Shown here one piece after another: positions 6,229-16,215 of a stretch of 49,793 bases of DNA. The notes under the pieces are model-generated. The model made no database searches. It was not told where the DNA came from and saw nothing but the letters and a program-made list of their open reading frames with translations. Numbering within the stretch: position 1 is the first letter of the stretch; the number at the start of each line of letters is the position of its first letter. The position numbers and the translations under genes are program-made. This DNA is from Metapseudomonas boanensis (GTDB lineage Bacteria; Pseudomonadota; Gammaproteobacteria; Pseudomonadales; Pseudomonadaceae): assembly GCF_018704125.1 (NCBI RefSeq), contig NZ_JAGTIS010000023.1, positions 1-49,793 on the forward strand. Reading direction: 5' to 3'.

Positions 6229-6946
6229 CATCGCCCTCTCGCATGAATACAAGGATGGCCTCAGCCACCTCATCGGGGGTCTCCAACGGTAGGCCATGAC
6301 TGGCTTCCGGGAAGACCTGCAACTCGATATCGGGCAGCCATTCCAGCAACGCATCCGCCGCGGTGACCGGTACCAGCGCGTCGCGCCCGGCAAACAGGTG
6401 CAACTGCGGACCACTGAAGCCCTGCAACGCAGCGCGCGTATCCAACACATCCAGCAGACGCAAACCGGCGTCCAGCGTCTTGGGGTCGACGCTTGGTTGA
6501 GTGACCTGCAGTTGCCGCGCCAGGGTACGCGCATCGCGAGCGCCCTGGGCGACCAGTAGACTGAAGCGCTTGAGGGTCTGCGCCGGGTCGAGCCGGCAAG
6601 CCTCGTGGAAGGCAGTGAAGACGTCATGCGGCATGGCGCTGGGCCAATCCTCGCGAGCGCGGAAGCTCAGGTTGCTGCAAAGGCCGATCAACCCCCGGCA
6701 TGCGTCGCCACGGCGTGCCGCCAGTTGCGCCGCCAGCATGCCGCCAAGGGACCAGCCGGCCAGCCAGGTATCACGGGGCAGGCGCTCATCCAGCGCATCC
6801 AGCCAGGTGCCAGCCTGTTCGAGGCCTGGCAGAGGCTCGATTTCCACACGCAGGTGCGGCGCTCGTTCCACCAGTGCATCACGCAGCGGTTCCAGAGCAG
6901 CCGGGCCGATGGCCCAGCCCGGCAGCAGGATCAAGTGTTCACGCAT
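6221..6946 (-). CDS. bioH: Pimeloyl-ACP methyl ester esterase BioH
   Basis: A 241-residue alpha/beta hydrolase that removes the methyl group from pimeloyl-ACP methyl ester, ending the chain-building phase opened by BioC. The nucleophile elbow is GWSLGG with Ser66. A later GRDALVP supplies the Asp and EASHGLP the His of the triad. Two ATGs compete, at 6955 and 6946. GGAGG ends 9 bases before the second and abuts the first, so I use 6946. The gene overlaps bioF by 8 bp and bioC by 8 bp. Confidence 0.95.
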
Positions 6947-8120
6947 CGGCAGCATCCTCCGGTGGCAACTCGGCCCAGCACTCGGCCAGGGCAGTCAGCA
7001 ATGATTCAAGCTGCTCTTCGCTGTGGGCGGCAGAGAATGTGACGCGCAGGCGCGCACTGCCGGCTGGTACGGTGGGTGGGCGGATGGCACCGACCAGGAT
7101 GCCGCGGGCCTTGAGCAAGGCCGACAGTTGCATGGCGCGAGCGCTATCGCCGATCAGGATCGGCTGGATTGGCGTCGGGCTGTCCATCAGGGTCAGGCCA
7201 ATTTCGGCCGCGCCCTCGCGAAAGCGCTGGATCAGCTTGACGAGGTGCTCGCGACGCCAGCTTTCGCGCTGCAGCAACTCCAGGCTCTTCAGCGTGGCGC
7301 AGGCCACTGCCGGAGGCTGGCTGGTGGTGTAGATGTACGGGCGGGCGAACTGAATCAGCGTCTCGATCAGCTCTTCGCTACCGGCCACAAAGGCACCAGC
7401 AGTGCCGAAGGCCTTGCCGAGGGTGCCGACCAGCACCGGCACATCGTCCAGGCCCAGGCCGAAATGTTCGACAATGCCGCCGCCGTGAGCGCCGAGCGGG
7501 CCGAAGCCATGGGCGTCATCGACCATCACCCAGGCGCCCTTTGCCTTGGCGGCGGCACAGATCGCCGGCAATTCGGCCAGGTCACCGTCCATGCTGAATA
7601 CGCCGTCAGTCACCACCAGAGTGTTGCCTTCGGCCTTCTCCAGGCGACTGGCGAGGCTGACTGCATCGTTGTGCAGGTAGCGCGAGAAACGCGCCCCGCT
7701 GAGCAGGCCGGCGTCCAGCAGGGAAGCGTGGTTGAGGCGGTCCTCCAGCACCGTGTCGCCCTTGCCGAGCAGCGCGGTCACGGCGCCGAGATTGGCCATG
7801 TAGCCGGTGGAAAACAGCAGCGCACGGGGCCGGCCGGTGAACTCGGCCAACGCCAGCTCCAAGTCATGGTGCGGGCCACTGTGGCCGATCACCAGGTGCG
7901 AGGCACCACCACCGGCGCCCCAGCGTTCGGCGCCCTGGCGCATGGCGGCGATCACTTCGGGGTGATTGGCCAGGCCCAGGTAATCGTTGGAGCAGAAGGC
8001 CAGCATGGGCCGACCGTCGACCTCCACCTCTGGGCCCTGCGGGCTCTCCAGCAAGGGGCGCTGGCGGTAGAGATTTTCCGCATGGCGGGCGGCAAGGCGG
8101 GAGGCGAAATCGAAGGACAT
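6939..8120 (-). CDS. bioF: 8-amino-7-oxononanoate synthase BioF
   Basis: A 393-residue PLP enzyme of the alpha-oxoamine synthase family that condenses pimeloyl-ACP with L-alanine to make 8-amino-7-oxononanoate. The PLP lysine is K236 in [12 protein letters not shown]. The cofactor-binding DDAHGFG is at residues 201-207 and an NDYLGL motif is near residue 45. Length is usual for the family. The ATG at 8120 has no clear Shine-Dalgarno sequence. A REPIN lies between bioB and this gene, which may lower or buffer expression of the distal genes relative to bioB. Confidence 0.96.
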
Positions 8121-8221: not shown

Positions 8222-9280
8222 TCAGACGGATGCGGCGTCGTAGAACAGCTTGGAGTCGCGCTGCTCGACCAGCGCCTGCGCGATGGCGGCCTGGTGCACT
8301 TCATCGGCGTGCTCTTCGCGCTCTTCCGGCTTGATGCCGAGACGGGCGAACAGCTGCATGTCTTTTTCCGCCTGCGGGTTGGCGGTGGTCAGCAGCTTCT
8401 CACCGTAGAAGATCGAGTTGGCGCCGGCCATGAAGGCCAGGGCCTGCATCTGCTCGTTCATCTGCTCGCGACCGGCGGACAGGCGAACGTGGGACTTCGG
8501 CATCATGATGCGCGCCACGGCCAGGGTGCGGATGAAGTCGAATGGATCGACGTCCTTCTCTTCTGCCAGCGGGGTGCCTTGGACCTTGACCAGCATGTTG
8601 ATCGGAACCGATTCCGGATGCTCCGGCAGGTTGGCCAACTGGATCAGCAGGCCGGCGCGGTCGTCAACGGACTCGCCCATGCCGAGGATGCCGCCGGAGC
8701 AGATTTTCATCCCAGCCTCACGCACGTAGGCCAGGGTCTGCAGACGCTCGCTGTAGGTGCGAGTGGTGATGATGTTGCCGTAGAACTCCGGCGAGGTATC
8801 CAGGTTGTGGTTGTAGTAGTCGAGACCGGCCTCGGCCAGCGCCTGGGTCTGCTCCTGGGTCAGCTTGCCGAGGGTCATGCAGGTTTCCAAGCCGAGCTTC
8901 TTCACGCCTTTAACCATCTCCAGCACGTAGGGCATGTCCTTGGCGGACGGGTGCTTCCAGGCGGCGCCCATGCAGAAACGGGTAGAGCCGATGGACTTGG
9001 CTTCGGCTGCGGCCTGGAGGACCTTCTGCACCTCCATCAGCTTTTCCTTGTCCAGGCCGGTGTTGTAGTGGCCGGACTGCGGGCAGTACTTGCAGTCTTC
9101 CGGGCAGGCGCCGGTCTTGATCGACAACAGCGTGGAAACCTGTACCCGGTTCGGGTCGAAATGTGCGCGGTGGACAGTCTGGGCCTGGAACAGCAGATCG
9201 TTGAACGGCTGCTCGAACAGCGCCTTCACTTCGGCAAGGGACCAATCGTGGCGGGTAACGAGGGTTGCAGTTGCACTCAT
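8222..9280 (-). CDS. bioB: Biotin synthase BioB
   Basis: A 352-residue radical-SAM enzyme that inserts sulfur into dethiobiotin to make biotin. The SAM [4Fe-4S] cluster cysteines are C59, C63 and C66 in [10 protein letters not shown]. Other family motifs seen are YYNHNLDT and [10 protein letters not shown]. Length is normal. The ATG at 9280 has AAGGA about 8 bases upstream. It is the first gene of the minus-strand bio operon. A consensus-like sigma70 promoter and a BirA-like operator lie 80-130 bp upstream, so the operon should be repressed when biotin is plentiful. Confidence 0.97.
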
Positions 9281-9440: not shown

Positions 9441-10757
9441 CTACGCCAAGGCAGTTCGCCCGACTTTGCCAAAGCGCGCGGCAACGCCGTAGACGCCCGC
9501 CGAGACCAGGAAAGTCAGCGGGGCCGAAAGCGACTGCAGCACGCCGCCAGCCTGCATCAGCGCGAACCCCAGCAGCACACCACAGAACCAGGCGGCCAAT
9601 CCGACAGCATTCAGCTTGGGGGAATCAGTCACCTGGGCCGTCCCCTTGCCAAGGATGTGCGCCAGCGCCACGCCAACCCAGGCCACCACGAACACGCCCT
9701 GCCAGGCCAGCGCCTTGAGCAGCCAGGCGAACACATCCGCCAGCATCAGGCCGTAGACCGCCGCTCCTACCACCAGGGCCCAGACCACGCGCGAATAGCG
9801 CAGGCGCAGCAGGTCGCCGAAGAAGGCCTGCATGTTTACCGTGGCCAGGTAGTAGTTGGCAGTATTGATGCGCGTCTGGGTGACCCAGACGAACAGCAGA
9901 CCCCAGATACCCATCAGCTGGAGAATCGCCAGCACCACCGTCACTTCGCTCAGCTCACCCTGGCGCGGAATGCTCGCGGCGAGGTAGATGCCGGCCATGC
10001 CGTTGAGCAGGAAGGTCACCAGATAGAAGGGCATGCCGAAGTTCCAGCGGCCGTGGTACTTGGCGTCTTCCGGCTTGCCGAAACGTGCGTAGTCGAAGGT
10101 GAACATCATCAGCACCCACACGCCCATGTAGGCGGTAAAGCAATCCCACCAGCCAGTCGCCGACGGCTCGGCAGGGCCGAAATCCAGCCACTGCGGCTGG
10201 TAGCCGTATTCGCCTATGGACAACGCCACGGCAGCCAGCAGACCGAACAGGTAGAACGGCAGTAGTACGCCGTTGAACTTGTCCAGCCAGTTCTGCACGC
10301 TGCCGAAGATCAGCGGCACGCTGTACAGCACCACCAGCAGCGCTGCCAACGGGTAGGAAATAGACGGATAGAGATGATTGAACGCCACCGCGATCACCGA
10401 GCCTTCGAAGACCGCGTAGTAGATCGCCGTGGAGAAGAAGATCAGCGTTGCCAGGGAGGCGCCGAGCCGGCCGAACAGCACACGCGAGAACAGCGCCACC
10501 GATAGGCCGCTGCGTAAGGCGAAGCGACTGATCACCGCGTTGATCACGCCGTAGCAGACCACAGAGAGCAGCATGCCAATGATGGCGTTACGCGCGCCGT
10601 AAGCCAGCGCCAACGACGCTCCGACCACGATGTAGAACATGGCGCTGCACACGGCCCACCAGGCCATGGTCAGCGAGAGCTTGCCCATCCGAGCGTTGAG
10701 GGGAACGGGTTGGGTGGAAAGGTCGATGTCTTGTTCTTGTGTCGACAGACTTGCCAT
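9441..10757 (-). CDS. NCS1-family permease of the pxp-like operon (CodB-like)
   Basis: A 438-residue inner-membrane protein with about 12 hydrophobic segments, resembling purine-cytosine permeases of the nucleobase:cation symporter-1 family. Such carriers move cytosine, uracil, allantoin or hydantoins with a cation. The frame is open upstream to 10835, but ATG 10757 (MASLSTQEQD) has GGAG about 9 bases before it and gives the hydrophilic N-tail usual in the family. It is the last gene of the operon beginning with the pxpA-like gene, so it probably imports that pathway's substrate, perhaps a small cyclic amide or ureide (inference). Substrate cannot be read from the sequence. Confidence 0.85.
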   Translation of the reverse strand: MASLSTQEQDIDLSTQPVPLNARMGKLSLTMAWWAVCSAMFYIVVGASLALAYGARNAIIGMLLSVVCYGVINAVISRFALRSGLSVALFSRVLFGRLGASLATLIFFSTAIYYAVFEGSVIAVAFNHLYPSISYPLAALLVVLYSVPLIFGSVQNWLDKFNGVLLPFYLFGLLAAVALSIGEYGYQPQWLDFGPAEPSATGWWDCFTAYMGVWVLMMFTFDYARFGKPEDAKYHGRWNFGMPFYLVTFLLNGMAGIYLAASIPRQGELSEVTVVLAILQLMGIWGLLFVWVTQTRINTANYYLATVNMQAFFGDLLRLRYSRVVWALVVGAAVYGLMLADVFAWLLKALAWQGVFVVAWVGVALAHILGKGTAQVTDSPKLNAVGLAAWFCGVLLGFALMQAGGVLQSLSAPLTFLVSAGVYGVAARFGKVGRTALA

Positions 10758-10811
10758 CTTGGTTTCTCCGCAAGATGAGGCCCAGGTTTTGCGGCAACAG
10801 GGGACCGCGAC

Positions 10812-10833
10812 GGCTCCCTGCGAAGAGGGAGCC
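10812..10833 (-). other. Hairpin between pxpC-like and permease genes
   Basis: GGCTCCCT (10812-10819) pairs with AGGGAGCC (10826-10833). There is no U-run on either side, so it is more likely an intra-operon stem affecting permease message level than a full terminator. Confidence 0.4.
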
Positions 10834-10864
10834 ACCGGGTACCGCCGTTGCTGCGCGTGGTTAA

Positions 10865-11842
10865 TCAGGCAAGGAAGAAGCGGTTCAGCCGTTCGAGTTG
10901 CTGGTTGTAGTGACGTCGGGCCGCCAACGCCTCTTCTAAGGTGATGGCGACGAAACGGGCGCGCTGGTTCGGCTGCATCTGCGCCATCAGGTTGAGGTCA
11001 GGGCTGATCACCGTGCCGATCATCGCGTAGCCGCCGCCGGACACCGCGTCCCGGTGCAGGACGATGGGTTCCAGCCCACCAGGCACCTGGATCGAGCCGA
11101 TGGGGTAGCAGGCGTCGACGATGTTCGACGGATCGGAACCGGCGCCGAAGGGCTGTTCGCGCGGTTCGAACTCCAGCGGCGTGCCACCCTTGAAGCGGTA
11201 GCCGGTGCGATCGGCTTCCGAGCCTACGGTCCAGGTATCGGCGAAGAACTGCTCCGCCGCGCGGGCGGTGAGGCGGTGATGGTAAAGACCCGGGACCACG
11301 CGCAGGGTCACTTCTCCACCCAGCTCGATATGCAACGAGCGCGGCAGGGCCAGGCCTTCGCGATCCTGCCCGGACGGTTGGCCCAGCGGCAGTTCATCAC
11401 CGGCAGCCAGACGACGGCCGTTGAAGCCGCCGATGGAGCCCAGGCCGTAGGTGGAACGGCTGCCGAGCACCTCCGGTACATCGATGCCGCCGTCGATGGC
11501 GACATAACCCCGGGCCCCGGCCTTGATGTAATCAAAGCCCAGCACCTGGCCAGCGCGCACATGGAACGTGGCGTCCTGGGGCATCTCGGCGCCATCCAGG
11601 CGAGGGGTCATGCGTGCGCCGCACACCGCCACCAGGGCATCGCGCTGGAATTCCAGCTGCGGGCCAAGCAGCGTGCATTCGAGCACGGCGGCAGCCGCCG
11701 GGTTGCCGACCAACAGGTTGGCGGCTCGCAGCGCGTACTGGTCGAGCGCACCGGACGGCGGAATCCCCAGGTGGTAATGGCCCTCGCGGCCGGCATCCTG
11801 CACCGAAGTGGCGAGACCGGGTTTCAGCACCTTAATCGACAT
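10865..11842 (-). CDS. AHS2-family protein (PxpC/KipA-like; carboxyltransferase domain half)
   Basis: A 325-residue protein of the allophanate hydrolase subunit 2 (AHS2, KipA, PxpC) family. The N-terminus shows the family pattern GLATSVQDAGREGHYHLG followed by GALDQ. In E. coli, PxpC works with PxpA and PxpB in ATP-dependent 5-oxoproline hydrolysis. In urea carboxylase the same domain is half of the carboxyltransferase. The ATG at 11842 follows an excellent AGGAGGTG and overlaps the AHS1 gene by 11 bp, so the two chains are probably made in equal amounts. The biotin carboxylase and BCCP genes upstream favour a carboxyltransferase role (inference). Confidence 0.88.
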   Translation of the reverse strand: MSIKVLKPGLATSVQDAGREGHYHLGIPPSGALDQYALRAANLLVGNPAAAAVLECTLLGPQLEFQRDALVAVCGARMTPRLDGAEMPQDATFHVRAGQVLGFDYIKAGARGYVAIDGGIDVPEVLGSRSTYGLGSIGGFNGRRLAAGDELPLGQPSGQDREGLALPRSLHIELGGEVTLRVVPGLYHHRLTARAAEQFFADTWTVGSEADRTGYRFKGGTPLEFEPREQPFGAGSDPSNIVDACYPIGSIQVPGGLEPIVLHRDAVSGGGYAMIGTVISPDLNLMAQMQPNQRARFVAITLEEALAARRHYNQQLERLNRFFLA

Positions 11843-12713
11843 GGAGCACCTCCTGCAGGTGCTGATTGCAGCCTTGCGGGTCCTGAATGAAGGCATCCAG
11901 ATCGAAAGTGACCGGACGGATGCGCAACTGGAAGGTTCCAGCCTCGACTTCGGCCACGGCCTGGTCGTAGGCCTCGCGGTCGATGGGCTTGAACTTGACG
12001 ATGTCGCCGGAGCGGAAGAACACCATGGATTCCTTCAGGTAGCCCAGGCGCTGCTGCGGGTCGTAGATGGGCGCCGGGGTGACGCCGAACATCTGGTAGC
12101 CGCCAGCCCCACGCACCGAGTAGATGCAGCCGAAGCAGCCGCCGTGGCCGAGGGTCAGCTTAGGCGTGTCGGTGCGCGGACGCAGGTACTTGGGCACCTG
12201 CAACTGCTGCTCGCGCTCGACCATCTGGTACATGAAGGGCAGCCCGGCGACGAAGCCGACCATGGAAACGAACCAGGGCGTGCCGCTGTGGGCGTCGATG
12301 AATGCCTGCGCGTCGGCATAGCCGTTGACCTTGGCCGCGTACTCCAGGTCGGTGGCGGACGGGTCCTGGTGGCGGTCGCGGAAGCGCATCAGCGTTTCAT
12401 GGGTCCAGGGATCGTTATAGAGCACCGGGATCTCGATGATTCGCGTCTGGATACTGCGCTCGGCGGTGGCCTCGGCCTCCAGTTCGCGGACCTTTTCCAG
12501 CAGCGCCTTCGGGGCGATTTCGTCGGGGTTGAAGCGGATCTGGAAGGATGCGTTGGCCAGACAGATATCGAGCACGCCGGGCAGCGCCTGCTGCTCGACG
12601 GCGCGGGTGATTGCCATGCCGCGGAAGAAGGCTTCCAGCGACATGGACTCGGACACTTCGGCGAAGAGGTGCTCATCGCCGCCGAAGCTGTAGCGCACGG
12701 GTTCTGCGTTCAT
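11832..12713 (-). CDS. AHS1-family protein, urea-carboxylase-like (PxpB/KipI family)
   Basis: A 293-residue AHS1-domain protein, clearly longer than the roughly 220 residues usual for PxpB/KipI. The extra region and the motifs NDPWTHETLMRF (near 110), ATDLEYAAKVNGY, PKYLRPRT and a CIYSVRGAGGYQMFG segment resemble the carboxyltransferase part of urea carboxylase as I recall it, more than E. coli PxpB. The frame is open upstream to 12839, but ATG 12713 lies one base after the biotin carboxylase TGA with GGAGG before it. It probably pairs with the AHS2 protein encoded next. The substrate is unknown. Confidence 0.87.
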   Translation of the reverse strand: MNAEPVRYSFGGDEHLFAEVSESMSLEAFFRGMAITRAVEQQALPGVLDICLANASFQIRFNPDEIAPKALLEKVRELEAEATAERSIQTRIIEIPVLYNDPWTHETLMRFRDRHQDPSATDLEYAAKVNGYADAQAFIDAHSGTPWFVSMVGFVAGLPFMYQMVEREQQLQVPKYLRPRTDTPKLTLGHGGCFGCIYSVRGAGGYQMFGVTPAPIYDPQQRLGYLKESMVFFRSGDIVKFKPIDREAYDQAVAEVEAGTFQLRIRPVTFDLDAFIQDPQGCNQHLQEVLHVD

Positions 12714-12714
12714 C

Positions 12715-14103
12715 TCAAGCCTCCGGGGCGGCGGGCGCCAGCAGAGCGGCCCGTTCGGCGAGCCAGGGTTCCAGGGTTCCGGTGTCGAACTGACCGTCAC
12801 GCACCGCCGGGTCGGCGAGCAGCAGGCGGTGCAGCGCAATGGTGGTGGCCATGCCGGTGAGGCGGGTGGCGTCCAGCGCCGCTTCGGCCCGGGCGAAGGC
12901 CTCGGCGCGGTCGCCGCCGTGCACCACCAACTTGGCCAGCAGCGAGTCGTAATAGGCCGGGACCCGATAGCCCTCGAACAGGTGGCTCTCCACGCGGATA
13001 CCCTCGCCTTGCGGCCAGACCAGCTCCTCCACCAGGCCCGGACTGGGGAAGAAGTTGCGCGCCGGGTCCTCGGCGTTGATGCGCATTTCCAGCGCCGCGC
13101 CCTGGATGTGGATGTCGTCCTGGCGCAGCGACAGCGACTCGCCGCCGGCGATACGCAGCATCCACTGCACCAGGTCGATGCCGGTGATCATCTCGCTGAT
13201 CGGGTGCTCGACCTGGATGCGCGTGTTCATCTCGATAAAGAAGAACTCGCCGCTGTGGGAATCGAACAGATACTCCAGGGTGCCAGCACCGCGATAACCG
13301 ATGTCGCGAGCCAGGCGCACGGCGCTTTCGCACAAGGCTTGGCGCTGCTCGGCGGTGAGGACCGGCGATGGCGCTTCCTCGAAGACTTTCTGCCGACGGC
13401 GCTGCAGCGAGCACTCGCGCTCGAACAGGTGCACCGCATGCTGACCGTCGCCGAGGATCTGCACCTCGATATGCCGCGCCTGACGAATGAAACGCTCCAG
13501 GTAAACAGCGTCCGAACCGAACGCGGCCTGGGCTTCGCGCTGGGCCAGGGGAAATTCGCGGGACAGTTCGGCGGCGTCGTGTGCGATGCGGATGCCACGA
13601 CCGCCGCCACCAGCGGAGGCCTTGATCAGCAATGGATAGCCCACCGTCTCGGCGCAGGCCAGGGCTGAGGCGAGGTCATCCAGCTCACCCGGCGAGCCTG
13701 GCACCACCGGTACGCCGGCGGCCCGGGCGGTGCGCCGCGCTTCGGCCTTATCGCCCATGCGGCGGATGGTGTCGGCACCCGGGCCGACGAAAATCAGGCC
13801 CGCCTCGACCACCGCCTGGGCAAAGGCGGCGTTCTCCGAGAGGAAGCCATAACCGGGGTGGATGGCATTGGCGCCGCTGTCCCGCGCGGCTTGCAGCAGA
13901 GCCTCGGCGTTCAGATAACTCTTGTCGGCGCGGGCCGGGCCGATGATCCGCACCTCGTCGGCCAGACGGGCCGGCAGCGACTGGGCGTCGGCCTCGCTGC
14001 ACGCGGCCACGGTGGGAATGCCCAAGGCCTGGGCCGCGCGGATGATGCGTACGGCGATCTCGCCGCGGTTAGCCACCAGCAGCTTGTGGATGGAGTTGCT
14101 CAT
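12715..14103 (-). CDS. Biotin carboxylase (AccC-like), operon-specific
   Basis: A 462-residue ATP-grasp biotin carboxylase that uses ATP and bicarbonate to carboxylate the biotin of a carrier protein. The N-terminal KLLVANRGEIAVRI, the glycine loop SAGGGGRGIRI, the EAPSP segment and the EMNTRIQVEHPISEM catalytic region are all present. It is the length of stand-alone AccC. Its place between a BCCP gene (10 bp upstream) and AHS1/AHS2 genes, rather than next to an accB of fatty acid synthesis, indicates a dedicated subunit of a different carboxylase. I therefore give no acc symbol. Confidence 0.93.
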   Translation of the reverse strand: MSNSIHKLLVANRGEIAVRIIRAAQALGIPTVAACSEADAQSLPARLADEVRIIGPARADKSYLNAEALLQAARDSGANAIHPGYGFLSENAAFAQAVVEAGLIFVGPGADTIRRMGDKAEARRTARAAGVPVVPGSPGELDDLASALACAETVGYPLLIKASAGGGGRGIRIAHDAAELSREFPLAQREAQAAFGSDAVYLERFIRQARHIEVQILGDGQHAVHLFERECSLQRRRQKVFEEAPSPVLTAEQRQALCESAVRLARDIGYRGAGTLEYLFDSHSGEFFFIEMNTRIQVEHPISEMITGIDLVQWMLRIAGGESLSLRQDDIHIQGAALEMRINAEDPARNFFPSPGLVEELVWPQGEGIRVESHLFEGYRVPAYYDSLLAKLVVHGGDRAEAFARAEAALDATRLTGMATTIALHRLLLADPAVRDGQFDTGTLEPWLAERAALLAPAAPEA

Positions 14104-14113
14104 CGTCCGGCCC

Positions 14114-14362
14114 TCACACGTCGGTTTCGATCACGGCCAGCAATTGCCCCGGCTCCACCGGGTCACCGTCCTCGGCGTGGAACGCCAGCACCCGACCGCC
14201 CTGGTCGGAGGTCAATTCGGAGAACTGTTTCATCACCTCCACCAGCCCGATCACGGCACCGGCTTGCACACGGTCACCGGCGTTGGCGTAGTTGTCGGCA
14301 TCCGGGCTTGGTTTGCGGTAGAAGGTGCCGGGCAAAGGGGAAAGCACGTGATATTCGGCCAT
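14114..14362 (-). CDS. Biotinyl/lipoyl-domain carrier protein (BCCP-like), 82 aa
   Basis: An 82-residue protein consisting of one biotinyl domain, without the long N-terminal part of AccB. The likely biotinylated lysine is K45 in VEVMKQF. The usual motif is (A/V)MKM, so the residue after Lys is Gln instead of Met, which is unusual. ATG 14362 has AGAGGA at a spacing of about 7; an in-frame ATG at 14383 has no such site. It should carry the carboxyl group from the neighbouring biotin carboxylase to the AHS1/AHS2 pair. Whether BirA modifies it despite the altered motif is an open point. Confidence 0.88.
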   Translation of the reverse strand: MAEYHVLSPLPGTFYRKPSPDADNYANAGDRVQAGAVIGLVEVMKQFSELTSDQGGRVLAFHAEDGDPVEPGQLLAVIETDV

Positions 14363-14411
14363 TTCTATTCCTCTTGTAGTCATTGTCTAGGCAGGCGAAG
14401 TAAGGGAGGGC

Positions 14412-15170
14412 TCAGCGCGGCGCTCTGACGGCGATGCCCGCAGCATCCAGGCGCGCGCGGGTGCGCTGGACCAGGGCCAGGGCTCCGGGCGTGTCGCTGT
14501 GGATGCACACCGAGTCGAAGGCGATCGGGATGTCTTTGCCATCGACGGTCTGCACCACGCCTTCCTGGCAGGCACGCAGCACCTTGTCGGCGACCTGTTC
14601 CGGGTCCAGCGCAGTGATCCGGCGGATGAACACGATGGAGCCGGAAGCGTCGTAGTCGCGGTCGGCGTAGAACTCGCGCACCACCGGCTGGCCCAGCTCC
14701 TGGGCGATGCGACAGATGACCGAGCCGTCCATGCAGAACAGCAGCAGTTCGGGATCGAGGCGACGCAGGGTTTCGATGAACAGGCGGGCGGCGCCCTCGT
14801 CACGCGCCAGGTGCATGTACAGCGCGCCGTGAGGCTTGATGTGCTGCAGGCGCAGGCCCTGCAGGCGGGCGAATTCACGCAGCGCGCCGAGCTGGTAGAG
14901 CATGTCGTTCACCAGCTCCTGAGCAGGCGCATTGATGTGCCGACGACCGAAACCCACCAGGTCACGGAAGCCCGGATGAGCGCCGATGGCTACGCCATGG
15001 CGCTTGGCCAGCTCAACGGTGCGTTGCATGGTGTTGGGATCGCCGGCGTGGAAGCCGGTGGCGATATTGGCGGTGCTGATCAGCGGCATGATCGCTTCGT
15101 CGACGCCATCGCCAATGGTCCATGGGCCAAATCCTTCGCCCATGTCGGAATTGAGGTCGACCTCAGTCAT
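14412..15170 (-). CDS. LamB/YcsF family protein (PxpA-like)
   Basis: A 252-residue cytoplasmic protein of the LamB/YcsF family; the E. coli member PxpA is a subunit of 5-oxoprolinase. Family motifs are [11 protein letters not shown] (5-15), an ATGFHAGDP stretch near 36-44, [13 protein letters not shown] and [10 protein letters not shown]. Two differ from the form I recall in PxpA: ACGFHAGDP has Thr for Cys, and CVHGD appears as CIHSDTP. This suggests a subfamily with another substrate. It is the first gene of the six-gene operon. The divergent LysR gene starts 128 bp away. It might act as the hydrolase after a carboxylation step (inference). Confidence 0.9.
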
Positions 15171-15297
15171 CGCTTGCTTGCCTCTTGTTGTCGGATGTCG
15201 ATGGAGCCGACGTTAAAAGGCACCCTAGGTATTGGGAAGATTTATTATTCGATAGACTGAGTTCTGAAAAATCGATACCCCCTGACAGGTCTCTACC
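15171..15297. promoter_or_regulatory. Divergent promoter region, pxpA-like operon and LysR gene
   Basis: This 127-bp gap must hold both promoters. TCGATA occurs twice in direct orientation (15249-15254 and 15272-15277), 23 bp apart, in an AT-rich stretch. It could be part of a LysR-type binding region, but no clean T-N11-A dyad was recognised. Confidence 0.35.
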
Positions 15298-16215
15298 ATG
15301 GCATTCACGCTGCGCCAGGTCCGCTATTTCGTCGCCACCGCCGAGGTCGGGCAGATATCCCAGGCCGCCATCCACCTGAGCATTTCCCAGTCGGCGGTCA
15401 CCAGCGCCATCCAGGAACTGGAGAGCCTGCTCGGCGTCAGCCTGTTCATCCGCTCGCCGCAAGGCATGACCCTGACCGACAGCGGCCGGCACTTCCTCAA
15501 CCACGCCTACTCCATCCTGCGCAGTGTCGAGGACGCGCTGAAAAGCCCGCTGCCGGATACCAGCATCGAGGGCAGCCTGAGCGTGGCCGCCAGTTACACG
15601 GTGATGGGCTACTTCCTGCCCTATCACCTGCAGCGGCTCGCGCAGTGGTACCCGGGCATCCAGCTGAACCTCTTCGAGCAGGAGCGCGAAACCATCGAGC
15701 GCGGCCTGCTGGAAGGCCAGTTCGACATGGCGGTGGTGCTGACCGCCAACCTGCAGCACCCGGAGATCGCCGCCGAAACCCTGTTCAGCTCGGAACGGCG
15801 CCTCTGGCTGCCCAATCGCCACCCGCTCAGCGAGCGGCCCTCGGTGGGCTTGGAGGACGTCGCCCGCGAGCCCTTCATCATGCTGACGGTGGACGAAGCC
15901 GATCAGACCGCCCTGCGTTATTGGGACAGCAGCCACCTGCAGCCCAGGGTGATCCTGCGCACCAGTTCGGTGGAGGCGGTGCGCAGCATGGTGGCGAACG
16001 GCTCGGGCGTGGCCATCCTCTCCGACCTGGTTTACCGGCCCTGGTCACTGGAGGGGCGACGTATCGAAACCCTGTCGCTGAACGACCCTGTGCCGCCGAT
16101 GAGCGTCGGGCTGGCCTGGCGTCGCGACCTGGAGTTCAGCGAACCGATGAAAGCCTTCCGCGAATATTTCCGGCACTCTTTCCTGGCCCCGCAACTGAGC
16201 AGTTCGCGGCGCTGA
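15298..16215 (+). CDS. LysR-family transcriptional regulator, divergent from the pxp-like operon
   Basis: A 305-residue LysR-type regulator. The winged helix-turn-helix spans about residues 1-60 (TLRQVRYFVATAE, ISQSAVTSAIQELE), followed by a two-lobe periplasmic-binding-like effector domain. The ATG at 15298 has AGG about 8 bases upstream and gives the usual family N-terminus. Its divergent placement from the pxpA-like operon suggests that it activates that operon in response to the operon's substrate or an intermediate, and may repress itself. The effector cannot be read from the sequence. Confidence 0.92.
   Translation: MAFTLRQVRYFVATAEVGQISQAAIHLSISQSAVTSAIQELESLLGVSLFIRSPQGMTLTDSGRHFLNHAYSILRSVEDALKSPLPDTSIEGSLSVAASYTVMGYFLPYHLQRLAQWYPGIQLNLFEQERETIERGLLEGQFDMAVVLTANLQHPEIAAETLFSSERRLWLPNRHPLSERPSVGLEDVAREPFIMLTVDEADQTALRYWDSSHLQPRVILRTSSVEAVRSMVANGSGVAILSDLVYRPWSLEGRRIETLSLNDPVPPMSVGLAWRRDLEFSEPMKAFREYFRHSFLAPQLSSSRR

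Follow-up and report, generated by a model that had tools for sequence, protein, structure and literature searches.

A split urea carboxylase-type operon with a PxpA-like hydrolase in Metapseudomonas boanensis: a candidate biotin-dependent system for the hydrolysis of cyclic amides

In Aspergillus nidulans, lamB is the gene after which the LamB/YcsF (PxpA) family is named, lamA is biotin-carboxylase-like, and both genes are used for 2-pyrrolidinone. Their role lies in lactam catabolism under AmdR (PMC8016842; this and the other PMC sources are cited from excerpts). Caprolactamase CapAB opens its lactam in an ATP-driven reaction that needs bicarbonate, and carboxylation of the lactam is one of the three mechanisms proposed for it (PMC8453981). 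In Staphylococcus aureus, a six-gene operon with pxpB, pxpC, pxpA, accB and accC is a target of CcpE (PMC11315280). The PA0493–PA0496 genes of Pseudomonas aeruginosa also form an operon, in which PA0494 is 55% identical to AccC and PA0493 is 40% identical to AccB, the function of both being described as unknown (PMC6249292); the expression of PA0492–PA0496 goes down on ParB excess (PMC5521831). The present analysis concerns an operon at positions 9441 to 15170 of a 49,793-nucleotide contig of Metapseudomonas boanensis (NZ_JAGTIS010000023.1; the whole stretch is referred to as the window). It encodes a PxpA-like protein, a biotin carboxyl carrier protein (BCCP), a biotin carboxylase (BC), the carboxyltransferase subunits AHS1 and AHS2 and a permease. 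The evidence leans, by a modest degree, towards a split, biotin-dependent and ATP-driven hydrolase of cyclic amides (lactams, imides or hydantoin-type compounds).

Open reading frames (ORFs) and profile searches placed the six genes contiguously on the minus strand, in the order given in an initial annotation of this DNA made from the sequence:

14412..15170, minus strand: PxpA-like (LamB/YcsF) hydrolase, 252 amino acids, first gene of the operon (PF03746, 311 bits)
14114..14383, minus strand: stand-alone BCCP, 89 amino acids (NF005457, 122.6 bits, cut-off 87)
12715..14103, minus strand: BC subunit, 462 amino acids (NF009471, 838 bits, cut-off 686; PF00289, PF02786, PF02785)
11832..12713, minus strand: AHS1 carboxyltransferase subunit (CT_C_D), 293 amino acids (PF02682, 132.9 bits)
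10865..11842, minus strand: AHS2 carboxyltransferase subunit (CT_A_B), 325 amino acids (PF02626, 302.5 bits)
9441..10757, minus strand: divergent NCS1-like permease, 438 amino acids (TIGR00800, 28.9 bits, below the cut-off)

The starts of the AHS1, AHS2 and permease genes are chosen inner ATG codons within longer ORFs (the longest permease ORF starts at 10835). With these starts the first four genes are separated by 28, 10 and 1 bases, AHS1 and AHS2 overlap by 11 bases, and 107 bases lie ahead of the permease gene. The six-gene type of arrangement recurs in other families of Pseudomonadota, indicating that it did not arise by chance. When 398 Pseudomonadota genomes were searched with an AHS1 alignment of 15 rows, 18 had a match at 1e-30. 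In 16 of these the E-value was no higher than 1e-138; the two weaker matches belonged to a split set that is only distantly related (L101/L116) and to a fused carboxylase of the urea/guanidine type (L102). Among 248 Pseudomonadaceae genomes, AHS1 was present in 34. The 95 loci used for comparison comprised the 80 nearest in named genomes (the best 80 of more; 79 from Pseudomonas and one from Pantoea) and 15 others (two from Pseudomonadaceae, 13 from outside this family). The BC gene was found in 51 of them and was lacking in 44; locus L108 ends at the contig end before BCCP.

The view that AHS1 and AHS2 do not fall inside PxpBC was borne out by the tree that the initial annotation had proposed. 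Since the output of a quick tree of 72 rows warned of long branches, a careful AHS2+AHS1 tree was made from 54 chosen rows (21 from the window clade, 12 urea or guanidine carboxylases (UC/GC), L116 and 20 of the PxpBC type). A branch supported at 100/100 separated the window clade, the UC/GC rows and L116 from all 20 PxpBC-type rows, seven of which come from clusters with BC/BCCP genes nearby; in the quick tree this division had a support of 99. The window clade itself was supported at 100/100 and did not lie inside the fused carboxylases. Judged from these sequences, the carboxyltransferase is of the urea carboxylase type and not PxpBC. None of the separate chains reached the single-chain urea carboxylase profile TIGR02712 (cut-off 1303.85; BC 527.8, AHS2 244.7, AHS1 102.4 and BCCP 25.3 bits), and the PxpB and PxpC equivalog cut-offs were not reached either (73 vs 145.55 for TIGR00370 and 228.5 vs 500 for NF045499). 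AHS2 scored above the cut-off of the broader 5-oxoprolinase/urea amidolyase profile TIGR00724 (268.7 vs 230.2). A canonical PxpABC identity was thus ruled out by the tree and the profile cut-offs.

The same branch bears on a PxpABC-like oxoprolinase scheme, also ATP-dependent, in which AHS1/AHS2 would phosphorylate the cyclic amide, PxpA would open it, and BC/BCCP would be dispensable accessories. PxpBC is assumed to phosphorylate 5-oxoproline (PMC13274462), whereas the pair encoded here groups with urea carboxylase at 100/100. On all the evidence given here and below, phosphorylation is regarded as unlikely.

The active-site residues gave a divided picture. Lys175 of AHS1 (about 12189–12191) aligned with residue 1012 of 3va7, corresponding to Lys1605 of KlUA (3va7/5i8i alignment, counted by hand). 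In urea carboxylase, this lysine is described as a general base that is probably essential, and the K1605A variant keeps about 10% of kcat (PMC5770610). The position was Lys in 51/51 loci with BC, 44/44 loci without BC and 19/19 UC/GC rows, and Arg in 13/13 PxpB-type rows. The AHS2 stretch AG..PSN..D..Y (234–246) was common to the window clade and the urea carboxylases, its positions 234–235 being absent from 12 of 13 PxpC rows. At the substrate end, Gln252 of AHS2 (about 11087–11089) occupies the urea/guanidine specificity column, which held Asp in 17 and Asn in two UC/GC rows (16 and two, respectively, when the 19 rows are reduced to 18 distinct genes). Gln was found there in all 51 loci with BC, in 43/43 readable loci without it and likewise in 13/13 PxpC-type rows. 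Position 154 of AHS1 was Phe in the window clade and in 12/13 PxpB rows, and Asp in all 19 UC/GC rows. The lysine, the insertion, Gln252 and Phe154 were all kept in the loci without BC (the AHS2 of L053 ends at the contig end).

Guanidine carboxylases carry Asp and urea carboxylases Asn (PMC12186494), and the residue of this rule is presumably the one in the AHS2 252 column. The distribution of riboswitches matched the rule, as a guanidine-I or guanidine-II riboswitch was found for 14 of the 16 distinct Asp genes and for neither of the two Asn genes on stretches of about 7–13 kb; the two Asn genes are sisters, so that this comparison amounts to one contrast. The Asp genes without a riboswitch on the stretch searched were L134 and L148. 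An earlier check, which had covered about 55–70 bases upstream of the Asn genes, was in this way repeated on longer stretches.

Because the lysine and the insertion are urea carboxylase-like and Gln252 and Phe154 are Pxp-like, the transfer machinery belongs with the carboxylases, and the part of the pocket that faces the substrate resembles the lactamases. PxpBC-like substrate-site residues fit a cyclic amide. They would also suit phosphorylation, against which stand the urea carboxylase lysine and insertion, kept in every locus with the site covered. Another scheme assumes carboxylation of a linear amide, a ureide or a carbon acid, the product being hydrolysed or isomerised by PxpA. The nearest characterised carboxyltransferases indeed act on urea and guanidine, but here the UC/GC specificity residues are replaced by those of PxpBC, and PxpA takes the place that an amidase or a carboxyguanidine deiminase would be expected to have as partner. 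A substrate of this kind is considered quite improbable. Urea or guanidine as the leading substrate idea was set aside on account of the same replacements.

The biotinyl lysine of BCCP, Lys52, lies in EVMKQF (about 14228–14230) and was conserved to at least 98% in 51 aligned rows, all of which had the EVMK motif. The domain is AccB-like with a thumb (TFYRxPSPDA) and aligned to the Escherichia coli AccB domain, its best match among PDB chains. Scores above the cut-offs of NF005457, NF009471 and NF006367, by which NCBI names BC and BCCP as parts of acetyl-CoA carboxylase, and the hint in PMC6249292 at such a role for PA0493/PA0494 would suit a second acetyl-CoA carboxylase set standing by chance next to a PxpABC set. 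However, the AccB and AccC equivalogs were missed (TIGR00531, 75.6 vs 115.2 bits; TIGR00514, 584.3 vs 626.5), and Pfam detected no acetyl-CoA carboxyltransferase domain in any of the six operon proteins. Moreover, the BCCP family (NF005457, E<=1e-27) was found in 24 of the 248 Pseudomonadaceae genomes, all 24 copies lying within about 2.5 kb of this AHS1, and was not seen in the 214 genomes without this AHS1. At most 21 first-look candidates were scored per genome, and weaker AccB-like carriers fall below this threshold. As far as the survey reaches, BCCP is dedicated to the AHS1 system, which argues against a role in fatty-acid synthesis. In line with the initial annotation, the idea of BC and BCCP as spare acetyl-CoA carboxylase parts was dropped as a result of this survey, and we find it barely credible.

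The PxpA-like protein scored above the cut-offs of NF003814 (308 vs 226 bits) and NF003816 (231 vs 213) and missed all three PxpA equivalog cut-offs in the NCBIfam profile search. The PxpA proteins of the urea carboxylase-type operons and of L116 grouped in a single clade (98/95) that excluded E. coli PxpA and the two other PxpA proteins of the genome, and by sequence this hydrolase is coupled to the carboxyltransferase. The HSDT motif of the window PxpA is a mark of its clade and was kept in 44/44 loci without BC. Of ten PxpA rows from the first survey, nine had HGDN, HGDG or HGDS at this site, and L153 did not match the search pattern. In L105, L107, L111 and L115, PxpA was of a second sub-type (42–45% identity), which shows that one carboxylase type can go with different hydrolases. 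The distant L116 set (genome G249) has the order AHS1-AHS2-BCCP-BC with PxpA about 5.6 kb away; it stands beside urea carboxylase in the carboxyltransferase tree (96/88) and inside the PxpA clade of the operon, and has Ser at the specificity column.

In the proposed mechanism, BC would use ATP and bicarbonate to form carboxylated biotin on the stand-alone BCCP, and AHS1/AHS2 would pass this carboxyl group on to the nitrogen in the ring of the substrate. The ring amide, now activated, would be hydrolysed by the PxpA-like protein, and the resulting N-carboxylate (a carbamate) would lose CO2 to give an amino acid. The net cost would be one ATP, bicarbonate being catalytic. The LysR-type regulator encoded next to the operon would control it, and the permease, where present, would import the substrate. 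The initial annotation had likewise proposed N-carboxylation followed by hydrolysis by PxpA; the urea carboxylase general base and the PxpBC-like substrate residues agree with this, whereas the absence of a dedicated BC/BCCP from 44 of the 95 loci does not. The joining of BC/BCCP to PxpABC is not peculiar to this operon, as it is also seen in PxpBC-type clusters (L162–L166) and in S. aureus (PMC11315280).

Several observations weigh against a biotin-dependent function. BC and BCCP are lacking in 44 of the 95 loci, in which PxpA is a near or direct neighbour of AHS1, and BCCP is missing from 10 of the 34 Pseudomonadaceae genomes with AHS1. The ratio of nonsynonymous to synonymous substitution rates (dN/dS) of AHS1, AHS2 and PxpA stays at 0.03–0.06 in the loci without BC. 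BC/BCCP also adjoin PxpBC-type subunits with Arg at the lysine site, so that the lysine is no strict marker of biotin. The papers retrieved contain no biochemistry for this carboxyltransferase clade, and in the 2017 work of Niehaus, PxpABC is said to need ATP but no biotin. In the survey of the six genes, BCCP was always beside AHS1 (24/24), BC/BCCP occurred in 51 of 95 loci and the permease in 27 of 95 rows.

On a 95-row tree, which includes the window and leaves out the truncated L053, the state of BC needs six changes, at least four of them forced by well-supported branches; on the 72-row tree it needs seven, at least two of them forced. Since the 13 loci outside Pseudomonadaceae all have BC, loss was taken as the direction of the change. 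The L084 locus, on a 6.6 kb contig, is a row with BC inside a group without it, and regain or exchange of BC/BCCP is possible there. In L017 (Pseudomonas sp. TH31), two ORFs stand in place of an intact BC gene; this may be an error of the assembly, because the BC and AccC matches of this genome end at the same model position.

The dN/dS sample covered 37 of the 44 loci without BC and 30 of the 51 with it. Median values in the three groups without BC were 0.031–0.054 for AHS1, 0.034–0.048 for AHS2 and 0.053–0.059 for PxpA, compared with 0.036, 0.058 and 0.062 in the loci with BC. The putida-group AHS1 (0.054) was the one value clearly above that of the loci with BC. Such low values indicate that the three remaining proteins are kept without a dedicated BC/BCCP. 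As the loci without BC/BCCP also share the same regulator, the dedicated pair is not essential to the system. In the 17 genomes searched, out of the 44 without BC, neither a dedicated BC (>650 bits) nor a dedicated BCCP (>110 bits) was found elsewhere. The sole stand-alone AccB-like carrier in 10 of the 17 was one copy at 80–83 bits. The other seven hold further carriers. Retrieval of their surroundings, which covered all but the extra copy in G401 and a third one in G410, placed the copies of six of these genomes within a PxpBC-type cluster or next to one.

In Pseudomonas lacking BC and BCCP, carboxybiotin would come from the housekeeping AccB/AccC as the likeliest supplier. AccB/AccC serving in trans is the economical reading of these loci, the alternative being that biotin was never essential. 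A comparable case is mycobacterial AccA3, a BC/BCCP subunit common to two carboxyltransferases (PMC11001197). That the dedicated BC/BCCP is optional, was lost several times in Pseudomonas, and that the enzyme draws on AccB/AccC of fatty-acid synthesis is put forward tentatively, as a possible but somewhat doubtful extension. Strong constraint on PxpA-AHS1-AHS2 in 44 of the 95 loci without BC/BCCP would equally be expected if the cyclic amide were phosphorylated, whereas the presence of BC in 13/13 loci outside Pseudomonadaceae and of two other PxpABC-type sets in the M. boanensis genome speaks against phosphorylation.

Clusters L162–L166 from Pseudomonas combine BC, one or two BCCP-like proteins, PxpBC-type subunits (with Arg) and PxpA, the HSDT site of which reads HGDT or HSDT. 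They suggest that BC/BCCP joined PxpABC-like sets more than once, and a rule that the lysine means biotin was ruled out by them. In L167 and L168, additional genes of the AccB/AccC kind adjoin PxpABC sets that resemble the one of E. coli, and the site reads HGDQ.

A regulatory gene is oriented divergently to the operon, with an upstream region common to both:

15298..16215, plus strand: LysR-type regulator, 305 amino acids, divergent from the operon (PF00126, PF03466)
15171..15297, no strand assigned: region between pxpA and lysR, upstream of both, which contains a conserved block (window minus strand: TATCGAATAATAAATCTTCCCAA)

The regulator gene was absent from the initial annotation. A divergent LysR gene adjoined PxpA in 85 of the 94 loci with PxpA in a strict distance test. 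A block similar to that of the window was present upstream of PxpA in 14/14 loci printed (seven with and seven without BC), as judged by eye, and is a probable LysR operator.

The permease was only weakly NCS1-like (TIGR00800, 28.9 bits vs a cut-off of 353; PF02133, 20.9 vs 23.5), and no PDB chain matched it at E up to 1. An NCS1-like character thus stood, though below the cut-offs, whereas the substrate hint of the "CodB-like" label did not, the protein being too divergent to give substrate information; deducing the substrate from the permease was dropped for this reason. In 26 loci, all of them with BC, a relative of the permease gene directly follows AHS2. Counted over 95 rows with the window included, the permease was present in 27 of 52 rows with BC and in none of 43 rows without it. 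For a joint loss of permease and BC there were only four independent pairs on starred branches, too few for a sign test to become significant. Within the system, the permease is an accessory.

The operon of L114 is followed on the same strand by HyuA/HyuB genes that scored best as caprolactamase, although their 529 and 327 bits fall short of the equivalog cut-offs of 1000. A HyuA-like gene (481 bits) was found near the operon of L105. Sugar-type ABC transporters adjoin the operon in several loci outside Pseudomonas. TorT-like binding proteins were found next to such transporter genes in L107 and L110 (NF008185, 406 and 403 bits, cut-off 200), both of which missed the stricter TIGR02955 (293 and 282 vs 310). 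These two are periplasmic, and proteins of this kind named for trimethylamine N-oxide sensing may have wider roles. Gene context outside Pseudomonas seems to point to small cyclic or polar nitrogen compounds as substrates. The ABC transporters and TorT-like proteins would suit a small polar nitrogen compound and with it a linear substrate, but the caprolactamase-like HyuA or HyuAB genes beside two operons speak against the latter. For the cyclic-amide hydrolase, 2-pyrrolidinone or hydantoin may serve as first guesses, the former because of the fungal lamA/lamB case.

Downstream of the operon and on the same strand are bioB (8222–9280, by family) and bioF (6939–8120, by reading alone), which places the presumed biotin-dependent enzyme next to genes of biotin synthesis. 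Six of the 80 named loci, those of the P. aeruginosa group (L005–L009 and L011), likewise have bioB/bioF directly downstream on the same strand. The P. aeruginosa counterpart of the operon is, we assume, PA0491–PA0496, and locus L011 of P. aeruginosa PA7 presumably represents it, going by the locus survey and the gene numbers. The source genome (5.71 Mb) additionally holds two PxpABC-type sets (contigs C23 and C9) and one fused "urea carboxylase" (L121, contig C5), which has Asp at the specificity column and an adjoining guanidine-II riboswitch and is most likely a guanidine carboxylase. Given these sets, the studied operon is probably neither the 5-oxoprolinase nor the guanidine carboxylase of the cell. 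No parS site, as known near the operon in P. aeruginosa, was found in the window with up to three mismatches allowed, and an Rfam scan of the window at the gathering score gave no match. One promoter-like and three terminator-like sites were detected, not above the level of shuffled sequences.

If confirmed, the proposed function would add a further branch of urea carboxylase-type carboxyltransferases, in which biotin activates a cyclic amide for hydrolysis. It would also explain a P. aeruginosa operon whose biotin proteins have been published without an assigned function and considered in connection with fatty-acid synthesis (PMC6249292). The activation of substrates of PxpA-type lactamases, by phosphorylation or by carboxylation, becomes testable, and natural pairs of Pseudomonas with and without BC offer a ready experiment on a carboxyltransferase borrowing carboxybiotin from acetyl-CoA carboxylase. 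Were such borrowing true, acetyl-CoA carboxylase would also power nitrogen salvage. A literature search, outside which most subscription papers and some of the papers listed fell, brought up nothing on the chemistry of an operon of this kind, and combinations of the family names retrieved no study of it.

Compared with the known systems, the operon shares with urea/guanidine carboxylase the carboxyltransferase class, the general-base lysine, the active-site insertion and the use of BC with a biotin carrier. In contrast to the single BC-AHS2-AHS1-BCCP chain of these enzymes, it consists of four separate chains forming a distinct clade (100/100), with Gln in place of Asn/Asp and PxpA in place of allophanate hydrolase or carboxyguanidine deiminase. 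With PxpABC (E. coli b0711–b0713) it has in common the PxpA-AHS1-AHS2 trio, the Gln and Phe substrate-site residues and, likely, a net ATP-driven ring opening. It differs in that its AHS1/AHS2 lie across the 100/100 branch with Lys and not Arg at position 175, in the BC and BCCP genes within the operon, and in a PxpA from a separate clade with HSDT in place of HGDN, HGDG or HGDS. The S. aureus operon, likened by gene names alone, and clusters L162–L166 bring the same five subunit kinds together, the latter with PxpBC-type AHS proteins and Arg at 175. CapAB belongs to a hydantoinase/oxoprolinase-type family and uses no biotin. The lamA/lamB system of A. nidulans, likened by description only, is fused, while the operon is split. 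The parts are thus all known and the joining of BC/BCCP to PxpABC is already in print for S. aureus; the pairing of a urea carboxylase-type carboxyltransferase with a PxpA-like hydrolase found here is uncharacterised.

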